Positions 17,510-28,384 of a DNA stretch of 50,466 nt are shown in pieces (within the stretch, counting starts at the first letter, position 1; each line of letters begins with the position of its first letter). The notes below the pieces were generated by a model. It saw only the letters and a program-made list of their open reading frames with translations, was not told the DNA's origin and made no database searches. The DNA is from Holdemanella porci. GTDB taxonomy: Bacteria; Bacillota_I; Bacilli_A; Erysipelotrichales; Erysipelotrichaceae. Where the stretch lies: positions 1 through 50,466 of the forward strand of contig NZ_VUMR01000009.1 in the NCBI RefSeq assembly GCF_009696075.1, written 5' to 3'. The position numbers were made by a program, and so were the translations under genes.

Positions 17510-17737
17510 AATAAAAAAAACGCCCAAATATATATTGGACGTTATATACGCGGTACCACCAAAATTCCATCTGCCTATACAGATGACACCTCATTCTTAA
17601 CGCGAATTCACGATTTAGCCTCAAATCTTCGACTAAATAACTCCAAGACACGTTCCAAAAGTTTTCACAATAACTTACACCTACCGTTATCTCTCTTAAG
17701 AAAAATTACTTTTGTACTCTTCTCTTCTTCGTTTATG
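17510..17737 (-). ncRNA. T-box riboswitch leader of the amino acid ABC/aminotransferase operon
   Basis: On the minus strand GGTGGTACCGCG (17560-17549) is the invariant T-box sequence. It is followed by a terminator hairpin AACGTCCAA/TTGGGCGTT and eight U (17543-17513). Upstream, AGAGAGATAACGGTAGG and a GTGAAAAC segment fit stem I, whose upper helix can pair CAAAAGT with ACTTTTG. The specifier loop then has AGTA on its 5' side and GAACGTGTCTTGG on its 3' side. Candidate specifier codons are CGT (Arg), GTG (Val), TGT (Cys) or TGG (Trp); a full fold is needed to choose. Uncharged tRNA binding would allow read-through. Confidence 0.88.
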
Positions 17738-17743
17738 TAAACT

Positions 17744-21816: not shown

Positions 21817-23016
21817 TTAATCCTCCACTACAAAATCATACACTTTTTCTAACTCTTTTACACCCCACAAAACTGGAACTGGATATAATGGATTGACTTC
21901 ATGATCTGCGTAAATAGCCAATTCGTGTATATCCGATTTCTTTAATTCACTAAATGTAGATGAGATGCCAAAATACTTTTTCATTAAAGTGATTTGTTCA
22001 ATAAAACGCTCAGATCCAACCTTATAGGAATCATTCGCATTACAGATGCCACAATACAGGCCATTTCATAGAGTTTCTTATACACACTTTCTCCATATTG
22101 TTTCAATACAACATCAAGTAATGTTGCGTTAGTTAGTCCATGCGCAATATTATATTTTTCACCCAATGAATGAGCAATCGCCTGCACATATCTACATAGG
22201 ATACTGTAAAGGCATGTCCAGCATAGAAGGCAGCATCAAACATATTACTTCTAGCTTCTAAATCATTTCCGTCTTCATACACCTTATATATATTCTCAAA
22301 AATTAGTTTTGTAACCTTTAATGCATATGCACGCGTCTTCTTTGTGGTCGAATTACCAATATAAGCCTCAATCGCATGGCTTAAAGCATCCATACCAGTA
22401 CATGCCGTAATAAATGGAGGCAAGGATAAAGTGGGTTTTGGATCTAAAACGGCATAATCAGGAATCAAATTAAAATCATTGATCGTATATTTATGACGTG
22501 TTTTTGAATCTACAATGACAGCCGCAAGAGTTGTTTCACTTCCTGTTCCAACTGTGGTAGGTACACAAATCAACAATGGTAGTTTCTTCCATATCTTTAA
22601 AATTCCTCCATCTTTGATAGTGGTTTCTTAGGACGAGCAAGTCTAGCACCAATGGCCTTAGCACAATCCATGCTAGATTCTCCCCCAAAACCAATTAAAG
22701 TCTGACAATTAGAAGATAAATATTAGTTTTTTGCTTCTTCTACATTATCACTTGTAGGAGTTACGACTGTCTTATCATAAATTACATATGAAATAGAATG
22801 ATGATCCAAGTGTTCACACATACGATTTAATATTGCTAATTGATGCACAGTAAAATCAGTAATCACCATCACTTTAGATATATGATTATCCATGCAAATA
22901 TGAGAAATTAAAGATGTACTCTTTAATGTTTCAGGAGTTCGATAAAGTAAAATAGGAATCACTAGTTTAAAACAATTCTGAAAAATTCGACAATATATTT
23001 TCTTGAATGTATTCAT
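21817..23016 (-). pseudogene. Iron-containing alcohol dehydrogenase, decayed
   Basis: Segments in order cover a full type III alcohol dehydrogenase: MNTFKKIYCRIFQNCFKLV, then the cofactor region IGFGGESSMDCAKAIGARLA, then VPTTVGTGSETTLAAVI, ACTGMDALSHAIEAYI, AIAHSLGEKYNIAHGLTNA with iron-ligand histidines, and a tail ending VLWGVKELEKVYDFVVED. The frame is broken by a TAA near 22723 and by frameshifts near 22580 (after LSKME), near 22190 (after FTVSYV) and near 22030 (before SYKVGSE). GGAGGT precedes the start. With three frameshifts and a stop it cannot give a whole enzyme. Confidence 0.88.
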
Positions 23017-23081
23017 AAAGCACCTCCGTTTAGTTAACTTTATCAACTACAAAAAATATGGACACGTTCATGTCCATACCT

Positions 23082-23951
23082 TTATGCTTTCATCAATAGC
23101 TTTCGGATTGATTCTTCACTTACTGAGAAGATCGATGCGATACTTGAAATACTGAATCCTTTGTCTACCATTGTTCTATACATTTCTTTACGATTATTCT
23201 CGCTGCCTTGTTCGATACCCTGTTCAATGCCTTTTTTTATTCCTTCAGCTTCCCATTCCTTTGACTTTACTTCCAGCCATCTCTTTTCAGCTTCACACAT
23301 TTCAATTTCCTCCTTTTCCTCTAATTCTTCTAAATCCAACCATTCTACATCCGTTAATGTCTTGACGACTTTTAACACACTGCTTTTCACAAGTCCAAAA
23401 TGATTACTCGTTCCTTCATAAATAGACTGATCATAAATACTTCAACATATGTAGAATAGATTATACACGTCTTCTTCATTAAAATTATATGAAGTATTTC
23501 CTGTGATTTCAATCAGATTCATTTTGTAGTCATGGAAATAGGATTCAAATCTTTCATCCACCTCGACTAGCTCAGAAAGCTGTCTTGCTGCATTCCAAGG
23601 CCTTTCGCCTGTATAGAATACTAGAATGTGCACCATTGGTAGTTTTTCTTTCGACTTATTCTTCTTTGACTTCTTTAACATTCGCTCATACGCTACATAT
23701 TCATATACGGCCGCTCTTACAACCATGGACATATCCACATAACTTTGATTCTCAATAATGAATGCACTATAAAGATTTCCATCATTGTACTTACGAATCA
23801 CATCCACATGCTTTTCTAGATCCATATTCGAATCATTCATCTTTGAATCGAGTTCCATACAGTTTTCAGGTTTAAGAACTCTTTCTCCATCAAAGAAGTA
23901 CGCATTAAAGAAGTCGACAAAATAGGCATTGTTTTCTAAAAACTCCTCCAT
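23082..23951 (-). pseudogene. Rpn family nuclease/putative transposase, split by an in-frame TGA
   Basis: The first part (169 codons, 23951-23442) carries AYFFDGERVLKPENC, AFIIENQSYVDMSMVVRAAV and VHILVFYTGERPWNA, the PD-(D/E)XK pattern of recombination-promoting nuclease (Rpn/YhgA) proteins. The second part (from about 23440) is in the same frame: SIYDQSIYEGTSNHFG, a Glu-rich helix and EGIKKGIEQGIEQGSENNRK, the helical C-terminus typical of the family. A single TGA at 23442-23444 (after YNLFYIC) separates them. Either the gene is inactivated or two fragments are made. No ribosome site is visible before the ATG at 23951. Confidence 0.78.
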
Positions 23952-24100
23952 AATTTTGTCTTTTGATTTATTCTTGTGATTTCATCACCCCTATCTTATA
24001 TACGAAATACATTGAGGCTTTTCCAAAAAAGACGCACATTTTGATAATTTCACATAATTCATTTTGATTTCACAAGATTTACCAAAGTTATACTAAAATT

Positions 24101-24247
24101 ATGACAACATGGAATGTTATTCTATAAGTGCCTTAAAGATAAGGCAATGAATATAGAAAATAAACCAATATTCATATCTCTCTCCCAAAAATAATAATAA
24201 ACAAAAGAAACCATTCTAGGCGCCAACACTAGAATGGTTTCTTTTCT
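24101..24247 (+). ncRNA. Candidate small RNA A: two hairpins, C/U-rich tract, terminator
   Basis: This fills the 339-nt gap between the divergent Rpn and yigZ genes. A -10 TATACT is at 24089-24094, with a weak -35. Then come hairpin 1, TGCCTTA-AAGA-TAAGGCA (24129-24146); hairpin 2, ATGAATAT (24147-24154) with ATATTCAT (24168-24175); the unpaired tract TCTCTCTCCC (24177-24186); and a strong terminator AAACCATTCTAG/CTAGAATGGTTT (24208-24240) plus CTTTTCT. No ORF with a ribosome site lies upstream on this strand. The same architecture recurs at 28249-28384. The exact 5' end is uncertain. Confidence 0.6.
24208..24247 (+). terminator. Terminator of small RNA candidate A
   Basis: Twelve perfect base pairs, 9-nt loop, then CTTTTCT. 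No plus-strand gene precedes it, which is the main reason to infer a non-coding transcript. Confidence 0.85.
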
Positions 24248-24254
24248 ACTAAAC

Positions 24255-24291
24255 TTGTAGAATATAGCTATTCTTTGCTACAATACAACTA
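24255..24291 (+). promoter_or_regulatory. Promoter giving an apparently leaderless yigZ transcript
   Basis: -35 TTGTAG (24255-24260), 18-nt spacer, -10 TACAAT (24279-24284). Only ACAACT separates the -10 from the ATG at 24291, so transcription should start at or next to the A of the start codon. No ribosome site is present. Confidence 0.55.
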
Positions 24292-24890
24292 TGCCAAGAA
24301 TTCAAAATGATTGTATAAATACAATAGAAATTAAGAAAAGTAAATTTATTACCTACCTTCATAGAACACAGGATGAACAAGAGGCAAAAGACTTTTTAAA
24401 AGCTATAAAAAAAGAACATCCCAATGCCAATCATCATTGTACAGCTATGATAATAGGAAACATTATGCGATCTAACGACGATGGAGAACCAAGTCAGACA
24501 GCAGGTCACCCTATGTTAGATGTGTTGATGCATAATGATATGCAAGATATTCTAGCCATTGTAGTACGCTATTTTGGAGGAATCAAGCTTGGAACTGGAG
24601 GACTTGTAAGAGCCTATAGTTCGAGTATTTCCCAAGCTTTACAAGTGGCAACACTGACAACTGTAACTACACTTAAAGAATTTCAAATTCATTTTTCTTA
24701 TGATCTCATCGGAAAAATTGACCATTACTTTAGAACACAAAACATTGAAGTTATTGAACAACAATATGAAGAAGATGTTGTCTATCATTTCCTTGTTCTA
24801 GAAGATATTTCTAAAGATTTAATGGAACTCACAAATGGAAAAATAAAAATTCAATACATACAAGACATTGAAACCGAATGCGTTATTTAA
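24291..24890 (+). CDS. yigZ: YigZ/IMPACT family protein
   Basis: The 199-residue protein has the UPF0029 N-terminal domain: KKSKFITYLHRTQDEQEAKDFL, HHCTAMIIG, SNDDGEPSQTAGHPML (about residues 64-79) and VVRYFGGIKLGTGGLVRAYS (about 91-110), followed by a small ferredoxin-like C-terminal domain. The family includes eukaryotic IMPACT; the bacterial role, perhaps in translation control, is not firmly known. Start and length match the family. It appears to be translated from a leaderless mRNA. A small membrane protein gene follows at 47 nt. Confidence 0.93.
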   Translation: MPRIQNDCINTIEIKKSKFITYLHRTQDEQEAKDFLKAIKKEHPNANHHCTAMIIGNIMRSNDDGEPSQTAGHPMLDVLMHNDMQDILAIVVRYFGGIKLGTGGLVRAYSSSISQALQVATLTTVTTLKEFQIHFSYDLIGKIDHYFRTQNIEVIEQQYEEDVVYHFLVLEDISKDLMELTNGKIKIQYIQDIETECVI

Positions 24891-24937
24891 TCCGCATACT
24901 ATGAATATGATATACTTTAGAAAAGCGAGGTGCCTTT

Positions 24938-25195
24938 ATGGATAGTATTCTTACTCTTATTGCCTTTTTTGTGATTATCTTTATATTTGGAACCCTAGCA
25001 AGCTGGCTACTTCCATTTATTTTACCAATCATCATTTTCTTCTGGATTATTTCCCTATTTACAGGAAGAAGGCATGTACACGTTCACACTTATCGCAGTA
25101 CACAAAGCCAAAATGAACAACCAAAATCAACTCCAAAACATGGAGCTATTGATGTTGAATATACGGAACACGAAGAAGATGGAGATAACCAATGA
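24938..25195 (+). CDS. Small membrane protein, unknown function
   Basis: The 85-residue protein has a hydrophobic hairpin (SILTLIAFFVIIFIFG, then LPFILPIIIFFWIISLF) covering residues 3-45, followed by a polar tail with RRHVHVHTYRS and an acidic end IDVEYTEHEEDGD. GAGGTG precedes the ATG. Its stop overlaps the start of the next gene (ATGA, 25192-25195), so the two are translationally coupled. Family not recognised. Confidence 0.65.
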   Translation: MDSILTLIAFFVIIFIFGTLASWLLPFILPIIIFFWIISLFTGRRHVHVHTYRSTQSQNEQPKSTPKHGAIDVEYTEHEEDGDNQ

Positions 25196-26097
25196 TTTGT
25201 CACAATAGTGTTGGATATGATGCACAAATCAAAGACTTGTTGATTAAATCCGCATTTAATATGGATAAAAAAGAAATCGATGCCTGGATAAAATATCAAT
25301 ATGATCCACAACACATGTTCTGTTTCTGGCAAGACGATAAGATTACTTCTTGTCTTCAAGTCACAAAAAGAACTATGATGTTTTTAGATCGACAAATGCG
25401 CGTATCTGTAATTGGTATGGCTGCAACTTTACCAGATTATAGACAAAGAAAACAATTTTCTAACTTATTAGATGCTGCCATTTCGCAAGCTACCTATAAC
25501 GATTTATTAACCATAACATATACAAACATGCCTAAATTATTTGAGGCAAAAAGCTTTCAACACATTTCAAACACAAAAGAATATTGGATTGGAGCTCCAT
25601 TATGCAGAAGTGGTAATCCTTATCATGTAAAACAAAAAGCAGAGAACTTATACACATTATATTTCCAATTCATGCAGTATTTTGATGGCAGTATTCTATT
25701 AAGTGAAGATGAATTCAACAACCTTATTCAATTTCATAAAAGCTTAAAAAAATCCATTGTCACAATGGTTAATGAAGATAAACAACCGAAAGGATTTGCG
25801 ATATATTCCACAAAAGACAATCAGGCTCATGTAGAAGTTTTAGTTTACTTTGACTCACAAGCCATTCAAGATCTTCTAAGTTATTTATCTATCAACAATG
25901 AAGTAACATCCATTCTAATCAGTGAAAGCGAAAGATTTGATAAATTATTCCCGCTTCATTTTCCTAGAACCGATAAAAAATTAATGGTCAGACTCAACAA
26001 TTATAAATTATTCGATAAATTCTCTAACACAAACGTTAGAAACGCAAAAACAGCTTATGAACTATTAGAAAAGCCTACATGGAACCATTTCCAGTAG
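25192..26097 (+). CDS. GNAT family N-acetyltransferase (Eis-like, two-domain)
   Basis: The 301-residue protein has a GNAT core in its first half: SAFNMDKKEIDAWIKYQYDP, then MRVSVIGMAATLPDYRQRKQ (about residues 77-96), where the strand and following turn correspond to the acetyl-CoA-binding motif A. The second half is a further acetyltransferase-like domain as in Eis-type enzymes. It probably transfers an acetyl group to an amine; the substrate is unknown. Coupled by a 4-nt overlap to the membrane protein upstream. A terminator overlaps its 3' end. Confidence 0.7.
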   Translation: MICHNSVGYDAQIKDLLIKSAFNMDKKEIDAWIKYQYDPQHMFCFWQDDKITSCLQVTKRTMMFLDRQMRVSVIGMAATLPDYRQRKQFSNLLDAAISQATYNDLLTITYTNMPKLFEAKSFQHISNTKEYWIGAPLCRSGNPYHVKQKAENLYTLYFQFMQYFDGSILLSEDEFNNLIQFHKSLKKSIVTMVNEDKQPKGFAIYSTKDNQAHVEVLVYFDSQAIQDLLSYLSINNEVTSILISESERFDKLFPLHFPRTDKKLMVRLNNYKLFDKFSNTNVRNAKTAYELLEKPTWNHFQ

Positions 26098-26107
26098 GCT
26101 TTTTATT
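26071..26107 (+). terminator. Terminator of the GNAT gene
   Basis: AAGCCTAC and GTAGGCTT with a 15-nt loop, then TTTATT; lies inside the last codons. Confidence 0.75.
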
Positions 26108-26116
26108 ATGAAACGC

Positions 26117-26147
26117 AAAAAAGGAGGCATCGCTAAAAACCTCCCTT
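26117..26147 (-). terminator. Minus-strand terminator downstream of the bile salt hydrolase unit
   Basis: On the minus strand GGGAGG-TTTTTAGCGAT-GCCTCC is followed by seven T. Just upstream AAGATAATGG can pair with CCATTATTCTT (about 26155-26200). It closes the minus-strand unit after the pseudogenes. Confidence 0.65.
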
Positions 26148-26227
26148 TCTGCTAAGAATAATGGATTTAGATACTTTCAACAAGCATCCTCCATTATCTT
26201 AACACGTTTTAAATGAAATGAAACAAA

Positions 26228-26382
26228 TTATTTTTGTTTTGCCAAAGCCTCCAACATATTTCGAGCCACACTGTACTCATAATAAGGACCTCTTCCAAAG
26301 CTGTGCATGGCGCATACGAATATTCAAACATCGACAAGATCTATAAATCATTGCCACCATCCCCGTAATTCCAATGATAAAA
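26228..26382 (-). pseudogene. Remnant of a Cof-type HAD phosphatase C-terminus
   Basis: On the minus strand one frame reads WNYGDGGNDL, a stop, then ILSMFEYSYA, matching the HAD motif IV region GDGGNDLxML followed by SYAM. A second frame reads GPYYEYSVARNMLEALAKQK then TAA, like the C-terminus of the same family. The pieces are frameshifted and have internal stops. Only the last 50 codons are left. The rest of the 26098-26452 gap holds terminators and a degenerate repeat. Confidence 0.5.
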
Positions 26383-26445
26383 ACGTAAAAACAACTTATG
26401 AATTATCATAAAAGTCTACGCAGAATATTTCCAGTAGGCTCTATT
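26382..26445 (+). repeat. Degenerate copy of the GNAT gene 3' end
   Basis: This stretch resembles 26041-26104, the last codons and terminator of the GNAT gene: AACGTAAAAACAACTTATGA versus AACGCAAAAACAGCTTATGA, ending TTTCCAGTAGGCT in both. About three-quarters of positions match by eye, with one gap. Confidence 0.55.
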
Positions 26446-26452
26446 TACTAAT

Positions 26453-27158
26453 TCATGAAACAAAACTTCTGCCAGCTTTTACTCCATTCAATAAAATATG
26501 ATCGTCTTCTGGAATCCAATGGTGATCTTCAACAGTTGGAAGTCCATCATGTACTGGCCATGATCCATGTGTATTGTCTTCATTACTAGAAATAAAGACA
26601 GCACTAGGAATACCCAAAGTTGCCAATTCTTTATTGATGGAGCGAATACTTTCTAAGTCGGATGCCGTATAGCGTTCTGGATAGAAATTGTGGCAAGTTG
26701 AGAAATTCTTTGGATTTGCCCCATTTTCTAAAGCCATACGAATAGCTTGAATCATACAACTTGATAATTCGATTGTAATGTTATAAGGGTTGTTGATTAA
26801 AGTCACATCTCTTTGATCAAAATATGGTAGGTCCATACGAATGATATTTATTTCCATTTCTTTAAAGATGGAGATATCACTTTCGCTAGCACCCATTTTC
26901 TTAAAGAATGCGGTGTTACAGTCACCAGATACCTTCACTCCATGTTTATGTGCTAAATCACAAAAGTTTTTAAAATAATCAAACACTTCTTCTTTTGTGC
27001 CCGGAACACTAAACATACTTGTAAAGATTTTTGTGAAGCCATAATGGCTTGCCATTGTTAGATAGCCTTCAATTTCCTTCATGGTTTCTTGTTCCGAATA
27101 TAAAGAAACTCCTAAAATTGGTTTTTTTAACTGGTTTTGTTTCACCTAAAAATCCCAT
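26453..27158 (-). pseudogene. DUF871/MupG-like (6-phospho-N-acetylmuramidase family), frameshifted and truncated
   Basis: The body matches the N-terminal TIM-barrel of DUF871/MupG: ILGVSLYSEQETMKEIEGYL, FTKIFTSMFSVPG, VSGDCNTAFFKKMG, IIRMDLPYFDQRDVTLINNP and FSTCHNFYPERYTASDLESI. Known MupG cleaves MurNAc-6-phosphate ethers/glycosides in peptidoglycan recycling. A good ribosome site (AAAGGAGA) points to an ATG at 27158, reading MGFLGETKPVKK, but the body is in another frame; they join across a run of seven A (27122-27128). The frame also ends about 130 residues short of the usual length of about 360. It lies 17 nt after the bile salt hydrolase gene. Confidence 0.75.
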
Positions 27159-27175
27159 TATTTTCTCCTTTTAAA

Positions 27176-28126
27176 CTAATTTTGCATGTGAACCATTTCT
27201 TCTTCAATCGTTGGATAAGAAATAAGTGTTTCACCATCTAAATCCTCATTAAACATATTCACACCACTGATCTGACGATTATTGTATGTCGTATAATAGT
27301 AAATTCCATTTCTTAAGTCGCAACAAGACGTATAAATTGTATATTCATACTTTCCTGGTTCCACTTCACAAAGACCTTTTTGTTGTTCCACACTACCAAT
27401 AATGTGGAAATATTGGCTTAAATCATTCTTATCACTCGTCGCATTGGCTCTTGTATAGGCAACACGCACAAATCTTGATCCACTCGATAAATCACCCGGA
27501 AGTCCCATAGCTCCAAAACCACGTGAATAAGCAGTTAAATCCAATCCAAAGTTATTTTCAGGCTGTTTGTTTGATAAATACATATAGTCATTCAAACGGA
27601 ACAACTGCATAGGTAATGGCGGATTGTTTGTCAAAACATGCGTAGGATTATCATATACATGCATACCATCTTCCATACACTCCACGACAATGCTTTCATT
27701 TTCATCACTGATCATATAGTGTAATTCAGCTACTGGGAAGTGTTCATTAAATGGTGTGGCACAAACATTTGTATTTTCTAATACGACTCTTGCCTCTTTG
27801 ACACTTGCACATTGCGATAAGATCCAAGAAATAAATTCAAAGGCAGCCACATTGTTTTTACCTTCTTTTGCTTCATAAAACTTTGCATTCCCAACAAAGT
27901 TTAATCCAGCCATTCCCAAGCCTTTCTCATTCATGGCATCATAATATAATGGATACTCTTCAAATACATGGGCCATTCCAATCAGAGCATAATGACTTTC
28001 ATGTTTATCTAAATGTCTAAAATGAAAATCATAATTGCGTGGCGTAACAGCTACTCGTTCTCCATATGAAAATTCATAATCTAAATTCCTTCCAAAAAAC
28101 TGATTAAAGCTTAATGCGGTACACAT
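27176..28126 (-). CDS. Choloylglycine hydrolase family protein (bile salt hydrolase-like)
   Basis: The 316-residue protein starts Met-Cys: after Met removal, Cys becomes the N-terminal nucleophile (MCTALSF). FFGRNLDYE supplies the active-site Arg and Asp; NEKGLGMAGLNF (about residues 69-80), VLTNNPPLP and FGAMGLPGDLSSGSRFVR (Arg about 225) match bile salt hydrolases closely, and the C-terminal YTSCCDLRNGIYYYTTYNN is typical of the clostridial branch. It deconjugates glycine- or taurine-bile acids; penicillin V acylase is the alternative. The start is placed at the MCT codon, with GGAGAT 7 nt upstream; a frame to 28135 would block the nucleophile. Confidence 0.9.
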   Translation of the reverse strand: MCTALSFNQFFGRNLDYEFSYGERVAVTPRNYDFHFRHLDKHESHYALIGMAHVFEEYPLYYDAMNEKGLGMAGLNFVGNAKFYEAKEGKNNVAAFEFISWILSQCASVKEARVVLENTNVCATPFNEHFPVAELHYMISDENESIVVECMEDGMHVYDNPTHVLTNNPPLPMQLFRLNDYMYLSNKQPENNFGLDLTAYSRGFGAMGLPGDLSSGSRFVRVAYTRANATSDKNDLSQYFHIIGSVEQQKGLCEVEPGKYEYTIYTSCCDLRNGIYYYTTYNNRQISGVNMFNEDLDGETLISYPTIEEEMVHMQN

Positions 28127-28213
28127 TAAAATCATCTCCTTCTACTTAATAGCTTAACACAAACCACAAAAAGATTACACACATAATAATGTACAAATCA
28201 AAATATGTGTTCA

Positions 28214-28242
28214 TTGCGTGACATTCAAAAAAACTATATATT
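28214..28242 (+). promoter_or_regulatory. Promoter of small RNA candidate B
   Basis: -35 TTGCGT (28214-28219), 17-nt spacer, -10 TATATT (28237-28242), with a predicted start near 28249. Confidence 0.5.
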
Positions 28243-28248
28243 TTAAGT

Positions 28249-28384
28249 GTCATAAGAAATGCCTTATCTTATGATTAACCCTTTGGAAAATTATTCAACC
28301 CTATAAACTCAAGATACATTTTTATCTTAATAATTTTCCTCTCCCTAAAGCAATGTCAAGCCCGGACATTGCTTTTTATTTTAC
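28249..28384 (+). ncRNA. Candidate small RNA B: two hairpins, C/U-rich tract, terminator
   Basis: This lies between the minus-strand hydrolase and chromate transporter genes and points the other way. Hairpin 1 pairs CATAAG (28251-28256) with CTTATG (28268-28273). Hairpin 2 pairs AAAATTATT (28287-28295) with AATAATTTT (28329-28337), with an inner AAGATA/TATCTT stem. The unpaired tract CCTCTCCCT (28338-28346) follows, then terminator AAGCAATGTC (28348-28357)/GACATTGCTT (28365-28374) with TTTTTATTTT. No ORF or ribosome site is visible. It shares the TGCCTTA string and the CTCTCCC tract with candidate A. About 136 nt. Confidence 0.65.

Follow-up and report, generated by a model that had tools for sequence, protein, structure and literature searches.

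A probable multicopy small RNA family of Holdemanella and related genera with a conserved tract complementary to translation starts

What are the two gene-free stretches that each carry hairpins, an unpaired C/U tract and a terminator on contig NZ_VUMR01000009.1 of Holdemanella porci (Erysipelotrichaceae)? We examined them by sequence comparison and folding, starting from positions 1 to 50,466 of this contig, a stretch of 50,466 nucleotides that we call the window. An initial annotation, made from the sequence alone, had read the two, here elements 1 and 2, as members of one small family of trans-acting small RNAs (sRNAs). As it had claimed, both lie between genes, and folding bore out the hairpins, the unpaired tract and the strong terminator of each: element 1 (24126-24250) folded with a z of -8.4 and element 2 (28245-28384) with a z of -5.9, and none of 200 dinucleotide shuffles was as good in either case. 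We give a probability of about three in four to the reading that element 1 belongs to a multicopy trans-acting sRNA, probably switched on by a regulator, whose copies block translation starts. Element 2 is treated separately below.

Element 1 is a self-contained unit made up of an upstream repeat site, a -10 box, a 5′ hairpin, a pyrimidine tract and a terminator (Table 1). Its promoter has the -10 sequence TATTCT (24118-24123) without a good -35, and the RNA is predicted to start at about 24127. The loops in the window read AAGA and GCGCCAACA; only the single-stranded tract is C-rich. In element 1 this tract is AUCUCUCUCCC at 24176-24186, which is followed by an A-rich linker before the terminator. 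When element 1 was compared with the 4227 families of Rfam 15, CU-rich sRNAs included, none was found at or above its gathering score, and permissive thresholds gave nothing convincing for element 1 or element 2.

Six full copies of element 1 and one truncated copy were found by a search of the H. porci genome. The congeneric Holdemanella biformis DSM 3989 (contig NZ_DS996843.1) has at least two copies; exactly where the orthologue of the window copy would lie, its assembly has a gap of N. Its family loci have a predicted RNA start just after TATTCTAT. Copies within a genome are 93-98% alike. One copy lies beside an M55-like peptidase gene at the same place in both species (C111 in H. porci, Hb_C37 in H. 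biformis); C111 resembles its paralogue C69 at 98.5% and its orthologue Hb_C37 at 89%, and this greater closeness to the paralogue indicates concerted evolution.

Beyond Holdemanella, the family was not revealed by blastn, whose weak matches in other genera proved to be chance once read, and a genome-wide 19-base scan returned H. biformis and seven contigs of unrelated groups, the latter probably by chance. A covariance model built from eight Holdemanella copies (R1) matched over its full length in genus g29, twice in each of the four genomes sampled, and in both g57 genomes; one other R1 match, L112, was rejected for having neither tract nor repeat. A model built from 18 family members, the window copy among them (R3), was then run over 316 genomes of the order and matched 24 of these from 13 genera, giving 41 members in all, among them four from outside its training set (L194, L195, L178 and L113). 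The window copy, itself in the model, matched at 24107-24247 with 125.1 bits. On the reverse strand, terminators score as high as 34 bits with R1 and 25 bits with R3, which sets the noise level; matches above about 38 bits exceed it, the lowest ones being less sure.

The stems of these members vary with pairing retained. Over the 41 members, 91.9% of cells were paired (63.9% in shuffles), 269 cells showed double changes (85 in shuffles), and sliding the partner by one to three columns left pairing at only 46-51%. Both-side changes were found at all 17 terminator pairs across the 41 members and, in the 5′ hairpin, at 4/7 pairs in 18 members and 6/7 in 41. The same is visible by eye in the raw family sequences, and the 5′ hairpin reads variously GUGUU/AACAC, GUCUU/AAGAC, GAGCUU/AAGCUC and GCCUUA/UAAGGC in the relatives. 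The second hairpin of Holdemanella is absent from the g29 and g57 relatives and is not part of the wider family; by eye, the terminators of these relatives differ and CUUCAUAU(AU)CUCUCUCCUAAA is identical or nearly so. Covariation together with a fixed tract indicates selection on the RNA. Element 1 almost certainly belongs to a genuine sRNA family, and that this family is a new one without an Rfam model, representing a known kind of sRNA, is well supported.

The tract is what the members have most clearly in common. The unpaired CAUA(UA)UCUCUCUCCU is nearly identical in eight genera, with a pyrimidine tract elsewhere. CTCTCTCC is present in 27/41 members, from eight genera (0.005 in shuffles), and a pyrimidine run with at least three C in 40/41 members (3.6 in shuffles); the other tracts include UUUUCCCUCCC in g31, UUUCCCUUCCCU in g41 and UUUUCCCUUUCUUUUU in g55. 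Other copies carry CTCTCTCCT, CTCTCTCCA or CTCTCTTTT. The expectation of the initial annotation that stems would change and the tract be kept holds for the element-1 family and fails for the CCC of the window copy, which is not retained. The complement of the tract, UUUAGGAGAGAGAUAUGAAG, reads as a Shine-Dalgarno sequence followed, at normal spacing, by a start codon. A backward control of the pattern CATAT-N0-2-CTCTCTCCTAA had zero matches in the 316 genomes. Three forward matches were discarded, two that resemble antisense gene starts (G084, G197) and one without the family layout (G011). Among viral contigs, 49 match a 16-base word of the tract and 14 of these also have TTCATAT; read by eye, the 14 are the antisense of phage gene starts. 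Carriage by phages was rejected, as no viral contig had the Holdemanella core or the element-2 hairpin.

Upstream of the RNA, a strict TCAC-N6/7-TCAC occurs in 22/41 members (0.07 expected in shuffles), 35 to 39 bases before the model start. Relatives have TCACAT-N4-TTTCACA where the window has TCAC at 24070; Holdemanella has TCACAAGATTTACC at that position and a further TTTCACA 20 bases before it. A direct repeat with a period of 10-11 bases at about -45 to -60, combined with a good -10 and a poor -35, is usual for activation by a response regulator of the OmpR/PhoB type, and the TCACA repeat is a putative activator-binding site, a proposal that we rather favor. The surroundings are conserved as well: ftsX (PF18075) is divergent to one copy in g29, g57, g71 and g28, and the second copy of g29 sits between nitroreductase and glutamate dehydrogenase genes. 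Since the upstream region with its TCACA-type repeat lies outside the covariance model, the repeat and the ftsX neighborhood are evidence independent of that model. Copies stand in tandem at L256, L258 and L266. At L256, from the second family, 226-545 and 1501-1635 hold three sRNA copies beside repeated secreted-protein-like genes, with a different, GTTCAYAATCAAGWCAYAAAC-like upstream repeat.

From these features we infer transcription, activation by a regulator, pairing and targets as follows. A regulator, probably a response regulator, would bind the TCACA direct repeat, some 45-60 bases before the RNA begins, and switch on a promoter that has a -10 and hardly a -35. The resulting RNA of about 105-125 nt would start at a protective 5′ hairpin and end at the terminator, and its exposed CAUA(UA)UCUCUCUCCUAAA would pair with the Shine-Dalgarno sequence and start codon of a target (UUAGGAGAGAGAUAUG type), blocking initiation of translation. 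Element 1 probably acts by such an anti-translation-start mechanism. The trans-acting role proposed by the initial annotation is, for element 1, in keeping with the family and with the complementarity of the tract to a Shine-Dalgarno sequence and start codon; the pairing itself is a prediction.

Several points weigh against this reading. Transcription of element 1 is deduced from its sequence; the pair counts are inflated by fitting the 41-member alignment to the structure of the model; matches of 38-48 bits are less certain; the second-family matches (G050, G229) have no TCACA repeat; and one H. biformis copy carries CTCTCTTTT. In addition, when 398 start regions, nearly all of them in H. biformis, were sampled, 6-8 paired equally well with the seed, so that the tract may be a general anti-Shine-Dalgarno sequence. 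As for individual targets, the recurrence described next covers sRNA-bearing genomes only, and it has against it that sites of the AGGAGAGA type are frequent, at 13-27 per genome.

No single mRNA stood out when targets were ranked by energy alone. Apart from the element copies, however, the H. porci genome has GGAGAGAGA at just two places, each a ribosome site: one at a IIB gene of a mannose/sorbose-family phosphotransferase system (PTS) and one at an NCS2-like permease. The PTS IIB site is also found in H. biformis, all four g29 genomes and one g57 genome, so that AAGGAGAGAGA stands just before the PTS IIB AUG in seven sRNA-bearing genomes of three genera. The leader stretch, AAGGAGAGAGAATATG, forms a predicted duplex of -20 to -22 kcal/mol with the tract, and in the leader alignment AAGGAGAGAGA, the Shine-Dalgarno stretch, and the cre-like GAAAGCGCTATCA before it are identical and their surroundings vary. 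Because other start regions and AGGAGAGA-type sites pair too, PTS IIB was picked by recurrence and not by energy; it is the best candidate, and we put it forward tentatively, at odds somewhat below even, as a true target. As an observation on these leaders in their own right (L073, L078, L229, L234, L237, L238 and L242), AAAATGTGTAAAG is strictly conserved along with the cre-like sequence and the Shine-Dalgarno stretch in the three genera.

A broader scheme is more doubtful still. It would hold that the family throughout is a multicopy sRNA whose tract complements an entire translation start, from Shine-Dalgarno sequence through spacer to AUG; that an envelope-type response regulator acts at the TCACA repeat, the ancestral locus being the one divergent to ftsX; that AGGAGAGAG-type mRNAs, for example those of sugar-uptake PTS operons, are regulated; and that the tract shifts between genera (UCUCUCUCC, UUUUCCCUCCC, UUUCCCUUCCCU) together with the Shine-Dalgarno dialect of the targets. 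If tract and targets do coevolve, AGGAGAGAG leaders should occur only alongside a UCUCUCUCC sRNA, and GGGAGGGAAA-type leaders in g31.

We then considered whether element 2 is a second member of this family. It too lies between genes, with a 5′ hairpin at 28249-28275, a long, interrupted second stem at 28285-28340, and three unpaired CCCU words, one in the CUCUCCC tract and two more. Its promoter, TTGCGT-17-TATATT, is clearer than the -10 of element 1, as the initial annotation had noted. Over 137 nt, element 2 is 98.5% identical in H. biformis (flanking genes, 93.5-96%); about 6% of same-size windows of the region are equally conserved, which makes this moderate evidence. It is probably an sRNA. 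Element 2 is divergent to a choloylglycine hydrolase gene (27176-28135, minus strand; PF02275), and the spacer between this bile-salt-hydrolase-like gene and element 2 (28136-28243) contains an inverted repeat, ACACATA-N18-TATGTGT, perhaps a shared operator.

That elements 1 and 2 form one family, as the initial annotation had it, is unlikely. They are alike in layout, and the element-2 tract (AAUAAUUUUCCUCUCCCUAAA) is similar to tracts of the UUUCCCUUCCCUAAA type in distant members from the second family, such as L256, so that a remote link is conceivable. However, R3 scores element 2 at only 11.9 bits even when run unfiltered and, in a larger search, did not list it among matches with E values up to 10. 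A model of element 2 (R2) returned no convincing relative outside Holdemanella, its match in G108 (E 0.019) included, so that the covariance search of relatives that had been proposed extended element 1 to 13 genera and left element 2 in Holdemanella only. The words common to both are at chance level: three 7-mers (CTCTCCC, TGCCTTA and TAATAAT) against 3.1 expected in shuffles, with a longest common word of 7 against a shuffle mean of 7.7. TGCCTTA is present in the first structure of both, as had been pointed out, but as a stem arm in element 1 and mostly as hairpin loop in element 2, and no TCACA repeat lies upstream of element 2. With shared words at chance level and models that do not cross, we rejected a common origin.

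A different possibility is that the element-1 RNA is made and its tract serves as a decoy that binds a protein or the ribosome rather than mRNAs. Multicopy RNAs bearing one short repeated motif are typical decoys, and the tract pairs about equally with very many Shine-Dalgarno regions. A simple polypyrimidine decoy, on the other hand, would have no use for the conserved CAUA at a distance that fits a start codon, and the complement of the tract occurs at real gene starts. We regard a decoy as improbable, slightly more so than common descent of the two elements.

Less probable again is a small mobile or parasitic repeat without cellular function, either like a miniature inverted-repeat transposable element or spread by rpn/YhgA-like putative transposase genes. 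The Holdemanella copies are highly alike, and for 6/9 the divergent neighbor is a YhgA-like (rpn, PF04754) gene or a remnant of one. No rpn gene was seen beside the copies in other genera, though, where the neighbors are ftsX, nitroreductase/glutamate dehydrogenase or an S24-type repressor. Two species have at least one copy in an orthologous position, synteny is conserved across genera, and concerted evolution is the better reading of the likeness within a species; the ends of the copies showed no terminal inverted repeats, and the covariation and fixed tract again indicate selection on the RNA. Synteny and the differing neighbors in other genera led us to reject a mobile element as the principal explanation.

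About as improbable is a role in cis, as leader or attenuator of the gene downstream, or simply as a bidirectional terminator. The window terminator does lie about 45 bases before the gene at 24291, and at 6/9 Holdemanella loci a convergent gene ends right at the terminator. Yet the downstream genes vary between loci and are often convergent, and a terminator alone would not account for the retention of tract, 5′ hairpin and upstream repeat. A small protein is the least credible: an ATG frame of 26 codons does run through the early part of the window copy, but a one-base indel shifts it in four copies (C40, C111, C69 and Hb_C37), and it begins before the predicted RNA start without a good ribosome site.

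Table 1. Coordinates in the window of the features assigned to elements 1 and 2.
Feature	Position	Strand	Basis
Upstream direct-repeat site of element 1, TTTCACAT...TTTCACAAGATTTACCA (putative)	24048..24085	+	TCAC at 24070, 37 bases before model start
-10 box TATTCT, element 1	24118..24123	+	TATxxT-ATAAG directly before 5′ hairpin in nearly all members
Element 1, candidate sRNA of a new family, ~120 nt	24127..24247	+	R1/R3 matches; fold z -7.5
5′ hairpin TGCCTTA-AAGA-TAAGGCA, 7 bp	24129..24146	+	both-side pair changes in members
Second hairpin ATGAATAT/ATATTCAT	24147..24175	+	Holdemanella copies only; absent from relatives
Predicted anti-translation-start tract CAUAUCUCUCUCCC	24173..24186	+	CTCTCTCC conservation among 41 members
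Intrinsic terminator of element 1, 17 bp	24203..24245	+	fold; all 17 pairs with both-side changes
Promoter of element 2, TTGCGT-17-TATATT	28214..28242	+	hexamers identical in H. biformis, spacer changed
Element 2, separate sRNA candidate	28249..28380	+	fold z -5.9; Holdemanella only
C/U tract CUCUCCC of element 2	28339..28345	+	fold
Intrinsic terminator of element 2, 11 bp	28347..28375	+	fold

Other features were recorded in passing. A YhgA-like (rpn, Transposase_31) gene at 23082-23951 (minus strand) is split into two frames; an almost identical copy, on contig C79, has an uninterrupted frame of 270 codons and no adjoining sRNA, and beside that copy, at L049 2340-2520, a possible yybP-ykoY-like manganese leader was seen by eye before a cation-antiporter-like gene. 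An iron-containing alcohol dehydrogenase gene at 22133-23046 (minus strand) is in two pieces and apparently a pseudogene. A T-box leader (Rfam RF00230, 126.9 bits) lies at 17532-17738 (minus strand), upstream of an amino-acid ABC-transporter-like operon.

How does element 1 compare with known sRNAs? A search of the open-access literature found no sRNA family described for Erysipelotrichaceae or Holdemanella, which is not proof that there is none. Several similar copies per genome, some in tandem, are known for the CiaR-dependent small RNAs (csRNAs) of streptococci, which consist of a 5′ hairpin, an unpaired stretch complementary to Shine-Dalgarno and AUG (CAU in 53/61) and a terminator, and whose promoters lie under a direct repeat, TTTAAG-N5-TTTAAG, bound by the response regulator CiaR (PMC3091779, PMC8186281). 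The element-1 family is likewise multicopy and in part tandem, has its Shine-Dalgarno- and AUG-complementary unpaired region between 5′ hairpin and terminator, and has its promoter below a direct repeat. It differs in that repeat (TCACAT-N4-TTTCACA), in bacterial order, in its tract (CAUAUCUCUCUCCUAAA) and in matching no Rfam family; the CiaR operator was absent from the upstream regions of all 41 members, 22 of which have TCAC-N6/7-TCAC instead. In Listeria monocytogenes, the multicopy LhrC1-5, which depend on the two-component system LisRK, block the lapB Shine-Dalgarno sequence with a CU-rich single-stranded stretch, and RsaE and FsrA are UCCC-type sRNAs of low-GC bacteria (PMC4132741). Multiple copies and a CU-rich single-stranded stretch directed against Shine-Dalgarno are common to LhrC and the element-1 family, whereas element 1 has one tract only, without LhrC's repeated UCCC motifs; element 2, with its unpaired CCCU words, is closer to LhrC in style. 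RsaE and FsrA share with element 1 a C-rich unpaired motif against Shine-Dalgarno regions, and differ in sequence and in host.

On this comparison, the streptococcal csRNAs appear to be the closest working analogues, LhrC the next, and element 1 is assigned to neither. The element-1 family seems to be a counterpart of the csRNAs that either arose independently or has diverged far from them. For the Erysipelotrichaceae, a major group of gut bacteria, it yields a covariance model, a search word, a candidate regulator site and a first target candidate. As a counterpart of the csRNAs, it would allow a comparison of how regulator-driven anti-Shine-Dalgarno RNAs evolve, and the drift of its tract between genera offers a natural test of coevolution with targets.

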